This document shows, in pieces, positions 7,105 through 12,430 of a stretch of DNA of 34,463 nt. The translations under genes and the position numbers were made by a program. Positions within the stretch are counted from its first letter, which is position 1, and the number at the start of each line of letters is the position of its first letter. Source of the stretch: Candidatus Limnocylindria bacterium (GTDB lineage: Bacteria; Chloroflexota; Limnocylindria; P2-11E); assembly GCA_036523395.1 (NCBI GenBank), contig DATDEH010000006.1:1-34463 (forward strand). Direction: 5' to 3'. Below the pieces are notes generated by a model. The model saw only the letters and a program-made list of their open reading frames with translations, made no database searches and was not told the DNA's origin.

Positions 7105-7650
7105 CTGCACGCTTCGGCCCTCCCGTCGTTCGGCGACATCGGCGGGCTGCTCGCCTACGTCTTCGGCAATCCCTACCTCTTCATCAGCTCGACGACGGCG
7201 ATGACCAGCGGTCTGCTCCTCGGCGCCGCGCTTGTCAGCGTCCTCCCTCGGCGCGCATACACGCTCCGTCGCGTCGCGCCGACCCTGGCCGTGATCCTCG
7301 CCTACTTCGGTCTCGGGAGCATCGTCCTCTCGACGGAGATCCTCCTGCGCTTCCACGACACGATCCCGAACGAGACCGAGGTCCAGTTCGTCAGCGGGCT
7401 GGGCCATCTCGTCGAAGCCGCTCTCGGGATCGCGCTGCTCGGTTCGTATCTGCGCGGGCGCACGCGTGTGGAATGGCTCTGGGCACACACGCTCGCGCTC
7501 GGGTACTGGACCTTCCAGGTCGCGGTCCTGACGCCACCGTGGTTCGCGTTCCAGGGTCAGCGCGAGGTGGTGCTGCAGGTCGTGCTGCTGATGCTGATCA
7601 TCGCGGCGGCGCTGAACGTCCTGCTGTGGAGGACCACCGCGCGGCGGTGA
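7105..7650 (+). CDS. Small multi-pass membrane protein, likely CTG start
   Basis: About 181 residues with four or five hydrophobic helices (for example in the segments SGLLLGAALVSV, TLAVILAYFGLGSIVL, VEAALGIALLGSYL, YWTFQVAVLTPPWF and VLLMLIIAAALNVLL). I recognise no family. The conventional ATG at 7201 would begin almost inside the first helix. The 32 upstream codons have the same G/C-rich third positions as the rest of the gene and lead back to a CTG directly behind an AGGAGGG ribosome site, so CTG is the preferred start (149 residues if 7201 is used). Its TGA stop shares three bases with the 3' end of tRNA-Lys on the opposite strand. Confidence 0.6.
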   Translation: MHASALPSFGDIGGLLAYVFGNPYLFISSTTAMTSGLLLGAALVSVLPRRAYTLRRVAPTLAVILAYFGLGSIVLSTEILLRFHDTIPNETEVQFVSGLGHLVEAALGIALLGSYLRGRTRVEWLWAHTLALGYWTFQVAVLTPPWFAFQGQREVVLQVVLLMLIIAAALNVLLWRTTARR

Positions 7651-7719
7651 GCCCGCCGGGATTCGAACCCGGAACCAAGGGATTAAAAGTCCCCTGCTCT
7701 ACCGTTGAGCTACGGGCCC
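7648..7719 (-). tRNA. tRNA-Lys (anticodon UUU)
   Basis: The minus strand folds into a full cloverleaf of 72 nt. The acceptor stem is GGGCCCG/CGGGCTC with one G-U pair and the discriminator is A. The D-stem is GCTC/GAGC, the anticodon stem GGGGA/TCCCT with loop CTTTTAA, the variable loop TGGTT, and the T-stem CCGGG/CCCGG with loop TTCGAAT. CCA is not encoded (CCG follows). Positions U8-A9-G10 are also the TAG stop of the upstream GAF-EAL gene, and the 3' end overlaps the stop of the convergent membrane protein gene. Confidence 0.97.
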
Positions 7720-8966
7720 AGCATTCCGGCCATTTTCTCATCAATGGCCTCTGCTGGGCGCTCCGTGCGCCACGTCGCCGCGGCGGCGGGCCGACCCATG
7801 AAATATCCCTGGCCTGTTGTGACTCCCAGCGAGATGAGCGTGGCGAGCTCGGCCTCGGTCTCGATCCCCTCGGCCACGACGGTGGTCCCGCTCTTGGCGG
7901 CGAATGAGACCAGCGCCGTTGCCATCGCCTGCCGCGCGACGTCCGTATCGATGTCCCGTACGAGGCTCAGGTCCAGCTTCACAAAATCCGGAGCCAGGCT
8001 GACGACGTGCCGGAGGCTCGCATATCCCGCACCGGCGTCATCGATCGCGAGGCGAACACCACGGCGGCGCCACCCTTCGATCGCGGTGCGCAGCGCCGGG
8101 TAGTCCTCCACGACGACGTGCTCCGTGATCTCGAAAACGACTCCGGTGAGGTCGCGATCAGCAAGTGTCCACGCCAACCGCTCGTGCGCCAGCGTCGTTG
8201 GGGACATGTTGATCGAGATGAATGCCGGACCGGCGAGGGAAGTCGCGGCCGAGAGCGCGCGCTCGATCGCCGCGATCTCCATGTCCACGCCGCGACCGAG
8301 CCGAGCGGCGTCGCTGAACCACGCATCGACAGGACGCGAGGGCTCGGCAGCGAAGCGCGCGAGCGCCTCATAACCAAGGCTCACCCGCGACGCGAGATCT
8401 ACGATCGGCTGAAAGACGATCGACGGGTCCCCGAGTGCCAGTGCCGCGTCGAGGCGGGCGGCCATCGCGTGCTCGGCGCGATCTCGCGCTCGCCCACCCT
8501 CGAGGCGCCGACTGAGTATCGCCGCGAGGAGGCGCATGACGCGTGCGTCCTGCTCCTGCAGGCGGGGCTCCAGCGCGCTGCGAAAGCACGAGAAGGTCCC
8601 GTACAGCGCGCCGTCCGCCTCGTAGATCGGCACACCGATGTAGGCGCCGATGCGCAGCTCGCGGGTGACCGCCAGGGCCTGCGCGGCCGCGACCGCGGAG
8701 ACATCCGGCATGAGCTCGGGCATCTCGCCGGCGACGATGCGGCGGCAGTACGTTTCCTCCAGCAGCGTCTCGCTTTGGTCGGCCATGGGCGGGTCGCCGA
8801 TGCACTCGATGAAGCGGTTGATCCGGACCCCCTCGCGGAATTCGCCGATGAACGCGATGTCCATCTCAAGATGCTCGCGCGCGGCGCGAACGATCGCGCG
8901 CACCTCGCTCGCATCGGCGAGGAGCATCGAGGGAGAGGGATCGGGACGCGCGGTCACCAGGCTCAC
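7710..8966 (-). CDS. GAF-EAL cyclic di-GMP phosphodiesterase
   Basis: A cytoplasmic protein of about 418 residues. An N-terminal GAF domain is followed by an EAL domain with every catalytic signature in order: EALAR, INMSP, EITE, DDAGAGYASL, VKLDLSLVR, AEGIET and QGYFMGRP. It is therefore expected to hydrolyse c-di-GMP to pGpG under control of the GAF ligand. There are no GGDEF or membrane segments. The start is uncertain: an ATG at 9056 would sit inside a 16-bp operator-like palindrome. The GTG at 8966 has GAGGAG 12 nt upstream and is preferred, and an ATG at 8927 is also possible. The final codons and TAG stop lie inside the tRNA-Lys gene. C-di-GMP usually governs the switch between motile and attached life, which may matter next to a buoyancy operon. 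Confidence 0.88.
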   Translation of the reverse strand: MSLVTARPDPSPSMLLADASEVRAIVRAAREHLEMDIAFIGEFREGVRINRFIECIGDPPMADQSETLLEETYCRRIVAGEMPELMPDVSAVAAAQALAVTRELRIGAYIGVPIYEADGALYGTFSCFRSALEPRLQEQDARVMRLLAAILSRRLEGGRARDRAEHAMAARLDAALALGDPSIVFQPIVDLASRVSLGYEALARFAAEPSRPVDAWFSDAARLGRGVDMEIAAIERALSAATSLAGPAFISINMSPTTLAHERLAWTLADRDLTGVVFEITEHVVVEDYPALRTAIEGWRRRGVRLAIDDAGAGYASLRHVVSLAPDFVKLDLSLVRDIDTDVARQAMATALVSFAAKSGTTVVAEGIETEAELATLISLGVTTGQGYFMGRPAAAATWRTERPAEAIDEKMAGMLGP

Positions 8967-9054
8967 GTTCGTGTGCTGCTCCTCTAGGTCCCGTGGCTCT
9001 CCACCTTGAGCCGCGGGTAGGCAACCAATGCTGATACCGAGTCCAACCGGCGAC

Positions 9055-9070
9055 ATGACCGTTCGGTCAT
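9055..9070. promoter_or_regulatory. Operator-like palindrome upstream of the GAF-EAL gene
   Basis: ATGACCG-TT-CGGTCAT has perfect 7-bp arms around a 2-bp centre. The TGACCG(NN)CGGTCA form resembles operators of TetR-family repressors. It sits about 90 bp upstream of the preferred GTG start. Confidence 0.5.
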
Positions 9071-9135: not shown

Positions 9136-9342
9136 TCACTGCGGCGGCGACGTCGGCGCCGGGACGTTCGCACCGACGACCTTGCGCCGCGCGACGGCGA
9201 TCGCGGCGGAGATGAAACCGGTGAGCAGCGCCATCGCGATCGTCTGTGGGGTCGCGACGTCCAGCTGAAGCGCAATGACCGCGGCGACCGCGCCGGCAAT
9301 GCCGCCCTCGATGATGTCGCGGATCACCTGTCCGACTGCCAC
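9136..9342 (-). CDS. Small membrane protein, 68 residues
   Basis: From a GTG at 9342 this frame codes a short protein with two hydrophobic helices (about 12-27 GGIAGAVAAVIALQL and 33-50 TIAMALLTGFISAAIAV), a basic RRK after the second helix, and a Pro-rich tail. Third positions are G/C-rich. It has the look of a small two-helix integral membrane protein, but I recognise no family. It is read in the same direction as the GAF-EAL gene, with a repeat-bearing 165-bp gap between them, so it probably has a separate transcript. Confidence 0.45.
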   Translation of the reverse strand: MAVGQVIRDIIEGGIAGAVAAVIALQLDVATPQTIAMALLTGFISAAIAVARRKVVGANVPAPTSPPQ

Positions 9343-9674: not shown

Positions 9675-10493
9675 ATGGATGCGGTGAAGGTGCAACCGCC
9701 AAGCGACAAGCCCGCCTCGGGCGAGGGCATCTACGTCTACTGCATCATCGAATCGGCCGACCCGCGGGCTTTCGGAAAGATCGGGATCGGCGGCCGCGGC
9801 GACGAGGTCTACACCGTGCACCACCAGGACCTCGCGGCGGTCGTGAGTCGCAGTCCGCTCTTGGTGTACGACCCCACACGCGAGAACGCCCTCACTCACG
9901 AGCACGTGAACGAAGTCGTGATGATCGACAACAACTTCACGCCCGTCCCGATGAGCTTCGGGACGCTCTTCAAGACGGAAGATGACACGAGAGAGTTCCT
10001 GAAGGACACCTACAAGGAGCTTCGCGACGTCCTGGTCAAGATGAAGGACAAGCTGGAGTTCGGTCTCAAGGTGAACTGGGACCGCGAGTCGGTGCTCACC
10101 GAGGTCGAGCGTGACTACGAGGAGATCCGCCGACTCAAGGCACAGATCGAGACGAACCAGCAGTCGTCCACGTACTTCGCGCGGATGCAGCTGGGCCGTC
10201 TGGTCGAGCAGGCACTGGCCGAGAAGTCCGAGTCCTACGTCCGCGAGATCTACGAGGAGCTGGCGGAATCGGTCATCGCGTCGCGCTCGAACAAAGTGAT
10301 CGGCGACCGCATGATCATGAACGGCGCGTTCCTGGTCGCGCGCGATCGGGCGGGCATGTTCGATAAGAAGGTGCAGGAGATCGGAAAGCGCTTCGAGGGC
10401 AAGCTGTCCTTCAAGTACACCGGACCGTGGCCGCCCTACAACTTCGTCACGATCCGTTTGAAGCTGGAGCGCGCCGCCGGGTCAGGCGCGTGA
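9675..10493 (+). CDS. gvpF: Gas vesicle protein GvpF/GvpL, paralogue 1
   Basis: A 272-residue protein of the GvpL/GvpF family and the first gene of the gas vesicle operon. The N-terminal half opens with EGIYVYCIIESADP and carries the family's TPVPMSFGTLFKTEDD segment. Coiled, Lys/Glu-rich helices fill the middle and the end has the signature GPWPPYNFVTIRL. GvpF and GvpL line the GvpA assembly site as accessory proteins, and GvpF is known to contact GvpA. Sequence alone does not separate F from L, and three paralogues occur here; this one is closest to the general F/L type. The short Ser/Pro N-terminal leader before GEGIYVY is extra. The TGA stop overlaps the GTG of gvpG (GTGA). Confidence 0.92.
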   Translation: MDAVKVQPPSDKPASGEGIYVYCIIESADPRAFGKIGIGGRGDEVYTVHHQDLAAVVSRSPLLVYDPTRENALTHEHVNEVVMIDNNFTPVPMSFGTLFKTEDDTREFLKDTYKELRDVLVKMKDKLEFGLKVNWDRESVLTEVERDYEEIRRLKAQIETNQQSSTYFARMQLGRLVEQALAEKSESYVREIYEELAESVIASRSNKVIGDRMIMNGAFLVARDRAGMFDKKVQEIGKRFEGKLSFKYTGPWPPYNFVTIRLKLERAAGSGA

Positions 10494-10810
10494 TCCTCTT
10501 CAAGCTCCTCGCGCTGCCCGTGACGGCGCCGGCGGCCGGTATCCGCTACTGCCTCGAAAAGGTCCTCGAGGTCGCCGAGCACCAGATGTGGGACGAGGAT
10601 CCGGTCCGCGAGCAGCTGATGATCGTGAACGAGGCCTACGAGGAGGGCCGGATGCCCGAGGCCGAGTTCGGCGAGCGTGAGGCCGAGCTGCTCGCGCGCT
10701 TGCGCGAGATCCGCGAGCACAAGAAAGCGGTCGCGCAGGCGCGGCTCTCCGCGATGCCAGACGACGGTGCGCGCCAGGTCGTCATCGAGCTCCCTGACGA
10801 GATCCGATGA
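10490..10810 (+). CDS. gvpG: Gas vesicle protein GvpG
   Basis: A 106-residue small accessory gas vesicle protein. The N-terminus (ILFKLLALPVTAPAAGIRY) and the following EKVLEVAEHQMWDEDPVREQL helix match the GvpG family. The second half is charged helix (EAYEEGRMPEAEFGEREAEL, then ARLREIREHKKA). The GTG at 10490 overlaps the gvpF/L stop; the longer frame from 10427 lies inside that gene and lacks the family's start. The stop overlaps the next ATG (ATGA). GvpG is essential for vesicle formation in characterised clusters and is usually encoded beside gvpF, as here. Confidence 0.9.
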   Translation: MILFKLLALPVTAPAAGIRYCLEKVLEVAEHQMWDEDPVREQLMIVNEAYEEGRMPEAEFGEREAELLARLREIREHKKAVAQARLSAMPDDGARQVVIELPDEIR

Positions 10811-11583
10811 GCCGGCTGCGGTACGTGTACGGCATCGCGCGGGCGAGCGACGCTTCGCGCGTCGCATCCGCGGGACTCACGGGCATCGATGAGAGCCCGG
10901 TCGGCTACGTCGTTGAGGGGCCACTGCTTGCCGCGACGAGCGACGTCGACGAGGCGGAGTACGGGGAGGCCGCGCTGAACGAGCACGTGCGCGATCTGGA
11001 TTGGCTCGCGGCGCGCGCCGCGCAGCATCAGGCCGTGAACGGGCGCCTGCTCGAGCTCCTCGGTACGGTCTTGCCGCTGTCATTCGGCGCGATCTACCGG
11101 GACGACGACCGCGTGCGGCAGATGCTGCGCGAGGACGCGAAGGACCGGAGCGTCCAGCTCGCCTCGCTCGCGGGTCACGCTGAGTGGGTGGTGACGGTCT
11201 CGCGCGACGCGAACGCGCCCGCCGACGATGCGGACGTTCGCGCGCTCGATGCGCAGATCGCCGCGAGCCCGCCCGGCCGCGCGTTCTTGTTGGACAAGCA
11301 GCGCGGCACGACCCTGTCCCGCTCCACCCTGAAGCGCGACAGCGACGCGGCGAATACAGCGCTCGAGGCCCTCGAGGGGATCGCGGTGCGCACCTACCAG
11401 GAGTCCGTCGTGGCCGGCGGCTCCGACGCGGTGGCGCTGCGCGCATCGATCCTCGTCGCCCGCGAGCGTGAGCCGGCGCTGGCGAAGGCGATCGGCGAGC
11501 TCGAGAGTCAACTCGATGCCAGCGGGTATCGCGTGCGCGCGAGCGGGCCATGGCCCGCATACCGTTTCGGAGCGATGCCTTGA
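10807..11583 (+). CDS. gvpL: Gas vesicle protein GvpF/GvpL, paralogue 2
   Basis: A 258-residue GvpL/F-family protein beginning RLRYVYGIARASD. It carries the central VLPLSFGAIYRDDDRVRQML segment, equivalent to TPVPMSFGTLF in paralogue 1, and ends with GPWPAYRFGAMP, the family's closing motif. It is diverged from paralogue 1 and richer in Ala and Asp. It probably works in vesicle nucleation or GvpA handling; the F/L letter is provisional. It overlaps gvpG by ATGA and the following gvpS-like gene by TTGA, showing translational coupling. Confidence 0.88.
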   Translation: MSRLRYVYGIARASDASRVASAGLTGIDESPVGYVVEGPLLAATSDVDEAEYGEAALNEHVRDLDWLAARAAQHQAVNGRLLELLGTVLPLSFGAIYRDDDRVRQMLREDAKDRSVQLASLAGHAEWVVTVSRDANAPADDADVRALDAQIAASPPGRAFLLDKQRGTTLSRSTLKRDSDAANTALEALEGIAVRTYQESVVAGGSDAVALRASILVAREREPALAKAIGELESQLDASGYRVRASGPWPAYRFGAMP

Positions 11584-11765
11584 CGCACGAGCCCGCGACG
11601 CTCGATGTGCCCCTGGTGGAGCTGGTGGACCGCTTGCTGAACCGCGGCGTCGTCCTGACCGGCGAGCTCACGATCTCGGTCGCGGGCGTAGACCTCATCT
11701 ATCTCGGACTCAGCGTGGTCCTGTCGTCCGTCGACACGATCCGGCGGACAGGTGCGGAGGTATGA
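11580..11765 (+). CDS. gvpS: GvpA-family minor structural protein, GvpS-like
   Basis: About 61 residues of the GvpA/J/M/S family. The core VPLVELVDRLLNRGVVLTGE, ISVAGVDLIYLGLSVVLSSVDTI keeps the helix-strand-strand-helix pattern of the vesicle wall protein. A TTG at 11580 is preferred: it overlaps the previous stop (TTGA) and has GGAG 7 nt upstream. An ATG at 11550 would add ten residues. The LDVPLVELVDRLL start and lack of a long C-terminal tail fit GvpS, a minor form found in actinobacterial-type clusters. GvpJ is the other possibility, but the gene at 12750 fits GvpJ better. Confidence 0.82.
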   Translation: MTHEPATLDVPLVELVDRLLNRGVVLTGELTISVAGVDLIYLGLSVVLSSVDTIRRTGAEV

Positions 11766-12430
11766 CGCTGCTCCTTCGCGCGATCGTCGCACCGGAGGAC
11801 GCGGGCATCGCTGAGGAACTGGGGCTGAGCGCGGTGTCGGGAAGCCTGTTGGCGGCGCTGGCTTCGCACTGGGAAAAGGCGCTCGTCGCCGGAGAACCGG
11901 AGCTGCTCGATCACCATCGCATCATCCAGTCGGTGTTCGAGCGCGTGCCGTGTCTCCCGGCGCGGTTCGGCAGCGTGTTCGACGACGAGGACGCGCTCCG
12001 CACCCGTCTCAACCAGCGCGACGTCGACCTCGCTTCACAGCTCGCACGTCTCGGGCATCGGTGCGAGCTCGCGATCACGTGTGCGTGGCGTGATAAAGGA
12101 GTGATCTCGCCGGTCTCGATCATGACCGCCGGCAGCGGGCGGGCCTACCTCGAGCGCGGTCTGCAGCAACGGCGCAGCGACCGGGAGCGGGTCGTCCGCG
12201 CCGAAGCGATCGTTGCCCGTCTTCTCGGTGAGCTGGCGACCGAGCCGACCCTCGTGCGCCACCGGACTTGCCCTCGACCGGCGGTGGCCGTTTCAATGTC
12301 CGCCTTGGTGACGCGCGACGAGATCGACGGGTTGAGTTCGCGCCTCGAGCGACTCGGCGCGCAGCTTCCCGACGTCACGATCGTCGTGCAGGGACCCTGG
12401 GCTCCGTACACGTTCGCGGTGAGCGAATGA
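11762..12430 (+). CDS. Gas vesicle protein GvpF/GvpL, paralogue 3
   Basis: A 222-residue, shorter and more diverged GvpL/F-family protein. The diagnostic segments are present: CLPARFGSVFDDEDALRTRL in the centre and the closing VVQGPWAPYTFAVSE. The ATG at 11762 overlaps the gvpS-like stop (ATGA) and the family N-terminus starts here; a longer frame from 11468 would run through the two previous genes. Three F/L copies in one operon suggest divided roles in vesicle assembly. Which copy is F and which is L cannot be decided by eye. Confidence 0.85.
   Translation: MTLLLRAIVAPEDAGIAEELGLSAVSGSLLAALASHWEKALVAGEPELLDHHRIIQSVFERVPCLPARFGSVFDDEDALRTRLNQRDVDLASQLARLGHRCELAITCAWRDKGVISPVSIMTAGSGRAYLERGLQQRRSDRERVVRAEAIVARLLGELATEPTLVRHRTCPRPAVAVSMSALVTRDEIDGLSSRLERLGAQLPDVTIVVQGPWAPYTFAVSE

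Follow-up and report, generated by a model that had tools for sequence, protein, structure and literature searches.

Short overlaps between a protein gene and a tRNA gene are classic in mitochondria and occur occasionally in compact bacterial genomes. Mitochondrial transcripts depend on excision of the tRNA, and their stop codons are completed by polyadenylation. The papers we found when searching for bacterial coding sequences whose stop lies within a tRNA were mostly mitochondrial as well. The locus described here, in a window of 34,463 nucleotides (the whole stretch of DNA analysed) from a Candidatus Limnocylindria bacterium, resembles the known short overlaps in that the coding sequence runs only a few bases into a tRNA gene, such that the stop would be lost on processing of the tRNA end; unlike the mitochondrial arrangement, this tRNA seems to be served by a promoter of its own, with no sign of dependence. 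With regard to transcription, most tRNA genes of the actinobacterium Propionibacterium acnes are transcribed individually, and its vegetative promoters carry a TAnnnT -10 box and a weak -35 (PMC3848588). Most tRNAs of the present genome show such a box; unlike in P. acnes, the candidate box at tRNA-Lys is located among the codons of the preceding gene.

The tRNA-Lys(UUU) gene was delimited by ARAGORN (7646-7719, minus strand) and by Rfam RF00005 (7648-7719, 74 bits). It does not encode CCA, the letters reading ACC-G, and it is single copy, no second tRNA-Lys(UUU) appearing in the tRNA inventory of the genome. The initial annotation had placed it at 7648-7720; the 7648 end stands, and the other end is one base off. 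The 3' end of the GAF-EAL gene reads ...ATG CTG GGC CCG TAG, with the G of CTG at tRNA nucleotide 1, GGC at 2-4, CCG at 5-7 and TAG at 8-10. That is, a same-strand frame enters the tRNA and finds its first stop there, which defines an overlap with a tRNA-supplied stop. As initially annotated, the GAF-EAL stop (7712-7710, minus strand) is U8-A9-G10 of the tRNA, and the end of the coding sequence together with TAG makes up tRNA nucleotides 1-10, nucleotide 1 being the last base of CTG. Any full-length EAL mRNA must carry these first 10 nucleotides, and an RNase P cut would therefore make it nonstop. The earlier expectation that such a cut would leave an mRNA without a stop agrees with the sequence, the predicted remnant ending in ...GGA ATG CT and holding no in-frame stop. 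The opposite-strand neighbour had also been said to overlap the tRNA 3' end with its stop, and its TGA (7648-7650) is indeed the complement of U71-C72-A73 (Table 1).

Table 1. Positions in the window, or loci, of the features discussed.
Feature	Location	Strand	Basis or remark
Convergent conserved membrane-protein gene	7105..7650	+	Orthologues in five relatives
tRNA-Lys(UUU) gene	7648..7719	-	G1 = 7719, A73 = 7648
EAL/tRNA overlap, 10 nt	7710..7719	-	EAL gene end = tRNA nt 1-10; read from sequence
GAF-EAL protein, 448 aa, putative c-di-GMP phosphodiesterase	7710..9056	-	Pfam, coding-frame score
Candidate -10 box GAAAAT of tRNA-Lys promoter	7732..7737	-	In last EAL codons
3' part of gene directly preceding tRNA in G002/G004	9161..9336	-	blastn
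Leader-element loci	L037, L039 (own tRNA-Cys, tRNA-Met); L061/L092 (G004 tRNA-Lys); L209, L214, L216 (G002); L265-L284		

The GAF-EAL ORF matches the Pfam EAL (2.4e-48) and GAF (1.4e-7) domains, and the catalytic motifs (the E of EAL, DD, K, EGIE, Q) are present by eye, in keeping with a putative EAL-domain c-di-GMP phosphodiesterase. By a codon-usage model for which long ORFs from the window and relatives served as training set, its frame is clearly coding up to the tRNA (0.23 versus 0.01 for the next best frame). The tails that follow the domain in EAL homologues are unrelated to one another and mostly 3-48 residues long; given this variability in relatives, a tRNA-encoded end would be tolerable and is probably harmless. 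The one match from a search of genome contigs for a closer GAF-EAL orthologue was at 45%, in an Acidimicrobiales assembly. The convergent ORF is considered real because its orthologues in five relatives are 57-78% identical; these stop outside tRNA sequence, and the C-terminus before the stop is NVLLWRTTARR here versus NVLLWTSAARGRS in G004. The gene probably starts at the CTG at 7105, after AGGAGG, the first ATG being at 7201. Its orthologue starts with GTG in G004 and with ATG in the others.

To follow the junction across the family, we searched 28 genomes, including that of the window, with a query composed of tRNA-Lys and 141 nt of EAL sequence. The tRNA-Lys part matched in all 27 other genomes and the EAL-tRNA junction in none of them; the overlap is found only in the window's own genome, and the conservation in relatives expected of a regulatory RNase P coupling is not seen among these 27. 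G002 and G004 belong to the same genus; in both, the stretch some 145-320 nt ahead of the tRNA corresponds to window sequence 1442-1617 nt ahead of it (84% identity to -318..-143 in G002 and 83% to -309..-147 in G004, relative to their tRNA), which is the upstream edge of the approximately 1.4 kb holding GAF-EAL here. With the upstream gene directly before the tRNA in both relatives, this 1.4 kb would have been either gained here or lost there; judged from these alignments, the simpler account is that this lineage gained it, and loss at the site in both G002 and G004 is possible. On the other flank, homology to G004 restarts at the convergent gene, two bases past the tRNA; the G004 copy of this gene sits 1.3 kb further from the tRNA. 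Following rearrangements at either edge of the tRNA, both neighbours thus have their ends in tRNA sequence.

A generic sigma-70 promoter scan returned nothing near the tRNA and was replaced by a position-weight matrix obtained by expectation-maximisation on the other 40 tRNAs of the genome. The resulting -10 motif is TAnaaT/TAnaCT, and 76% of the genome's own tRNAs score above the 95% background level for it. At tRNA-Lys, the box GAAAAT, a weak match, stands 12 nt before G1 (score 6.26; p 0.011 relative to a background of random 60-mers). The element GATGAGAAAATG upstream of tRNA-Lys is common to the window, G002 and G004, the latter two without GAF-EAL there, and the leaders that follow it in G002 and G004 are longer than in the window. 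These features suggest that tRNA-Lys is likely transcribed on its own, from within the EAL 3' end. We found no intrinsic terminator between EAL and the tRNA, which makes transcription reading through into the tRNA plausible.

A stop at this point of a tRNA is a frequent occurrence. TAG stands at nucleotides 8-10 in 23 of the 41 tRNA genes of this genome, because tRNAs almost universally carry U8, A9 and G10, and in the frame starting from nucleotide 2 a stop begins within the first 24 nt in 25 of the 41, so that entry into a tRNA in that frame often closes an ORF at once. The specific stop is therefore expected once the ORF enters the tRNA in that frame; only the ORF's reaching the tRNA needs explaining. 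At least two domain-bearing genes end inside other tRNAs of the genome, an HNH gene (L042, Pfam 3.6e-7) at the TAG at nucleotides 8-10 of tRNA-Met and a GGDEF gene (L043, 8.9e-10, a partial domain match) at nucleotides 13-15 of tRNA-Glu. The 236-aa GGDEF ORF, with its weak frame margin (0.24 versus 0.21), was counted on the Pfam match; at the other tRNA-Glu, an ORF of 197 aa (0.22 versus 0.20, no Pfam match) was left out of the count. Like GAF-EAL, these are unrelated genes ending early in a tRNA, and the different tRNAs and gene families involved argue for a generic cause. One more HNH-like ORF of this genome, with no match in Pfam, has its end in tRNA-Pro. In the relatives, the codon model called no gene ending in any of the 31 tRNAs of G001 or the 31 of G011 and one weak case among the 29 of G002, counts that are lower bounds, the HNH genes being missed by the model too. 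At some loci (among them L032, L050, L055, L064, L068, L069, L071 and L104), ORFs of 80-240 aa run to tRNA +10; these were dropped, their codon-position G+C not being convincing for genes; those of the window's own genome were not called coding by the codon model.

We favour, with a probability of roughly 0.85, an incidental overlap in a compact GC-rich genome, the tRNA being transcribed mainly from its own promoter. The GAF-EAL gene would have come to sit next to tRNA-Lys, with a conserved small gene on its other side, or the relatives would have lost it; its variable C-terminal tail would run through the tRNA promoter and stop at the first in-frame stop, U8-A9-G10, and the convergent neighbour would likewise take its stop from the complement of the tRNA 3' end. 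The promoter inside the EAL 3' end would be the main source of the tRNA, RNase P would cut read-through phosphodiesterase mRNAs as a mere side effect, and tmRNA, the gene for which is present in the genome, would clear ribosomes from the cut messages. Promoter activity, the transcript ends and the lack of a regulatory role are what we infer from the sequence. Nothing indicates selection for nonstop mRNA formation, and occasional coupling through read-through transcripts is possible. Several points stand against an incidental overlap: the box GAAAAT is weak and the generic sigma-70 scan gave no promoter, the missing intrinsic terminator makes read-through into the tRNA plausible, and with tRNA-Lys(UUU) in single copy, interference would matter. 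The initial annotation had gone further and proposed that tRNA maturation and phosphodiesterase synthesis compete: on a shared GAF-EAL/tRNA-Lys transcript, RNase P would destroy the message, and ribosomes at U8-A9-G10 would block folding of the tRNA. Such coupling would draw on the exactness of the overlap and the nonstop product of the cut, on the lack of a detectable terminator between the genes, on the presence of tmRNA and on the general consideration that a ribosome terminating at U8-A9-G10 would cover the D-arm. However, the junction occurs in no other family genome searched, the promoter-like box between the EAL domain and the tRNA has a counterpart in relatives, genes of unrelated types (HNH, GGDEF) overlap other tRNAs in the same way, and relatives without GAF-EAL at the site have an ordinary tRNA-Lys gene. 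We therefore regard the coupling as unlikely, and the proposed competition is unsupported, given the promoter-like box in the EAL gene and a junction found in no other family genome searched; a tRNA promoter within the EAL gene and a relative lacking the overlap had themselves been named as evidence against the proposal, and, as far as can be read from the DNA, a -10-like box lies there and the 27 other family genomes lack a match to the junction. If real, the coupling would be an unusual link from tRNA processing to c-di-GMP signalling.

It is highly improbable that the overlap gained a function in this one lineage, with phosphodiesterase made only if ribosomes beat RNase P to the tRNA; c-di-GMP breakdown would then drop whenever tRNA-Lys processing is fast. 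We give just as little credence to a misassembly that joined the flanks of two related populations at a 74-base tRNA identical in relatives. The assembly comprises 128 contigs, and G004 has the tRNA at 100% identity, as do G002 and G022 over 73 nt, but a join across the tRNA may mix flanks and cannot create either overlap, because each stop sits at the tRNA edge beside its own flank; moreover, both sides have intact coding frames, and both flanks match the same genus. Under the favoured incidental overlap, the near-universal U8-A9-G10 and the tRNA 3' end act as ready-made stops for adjoining genes, and the locus is a caution that a striking overlap need not imply regulation.

Separately, other tRNAs of the genome and of relatives bear a hairpin leader, composed of a copy of tRNA nucleotides 1-8, a loop, the reverse complement of nucleotides 1-8, the motif GTCGTCG, an inner hairpin and, immediately adjacent to the tRNA, CTCCTA, with variants at Ala, Arg and Trp tRNAs. 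The core, GTCGTC(G)-inner hairpin-CTCCTA, is accompanied by an outer stem whose sequence varies but whose complementarity is kept; where the element precedes a tRNA, the 5' acceptor strand of the tRNA (nucleotides 1-8) forms the 3' strand of this stem. A second, upstream copy of nucleotides 1-8 would allow mutually exclusive folds. A strict copy-plus-complement test identified 4 of 41 tRNAs here, 4 of 29 in G002 and 0 with shuffled tRNA labels; it was used in place of a looser decoy/anti test (7 of 8), which gave 15 against a shuffled mean of 4 and did not clear its control well. A pattern scan for the leader was too noisy, and a covariance model was used instead, which matches at E <= 0.01 in 26 of the 28 family genomes, many of the weakest matches probably being chance. 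Some of its strong matches lie before tRNAs and others away from them, notably in G009, where most of those inspected among 21 matches are not at tRNAs; the element is thus repeat-like. The leaders of six loci, compared with Rfam, matched no family. At tRNA-Lys the leader is full in G004, shortened in G002 and missing in the window. The element may be a mobile hairpin of the REP type or a regulator acting in tRNA leaders.

Near the GAF-EAL locus, a GvpL/GvpF-family gene lies at 9675-10493 (plus strand, Pfam 5.7e-73), and the ORFs that follow it, within 9675-12430 (plus strand), resemble it by eye, making this part of the window a possible gas-vesicle cluster.
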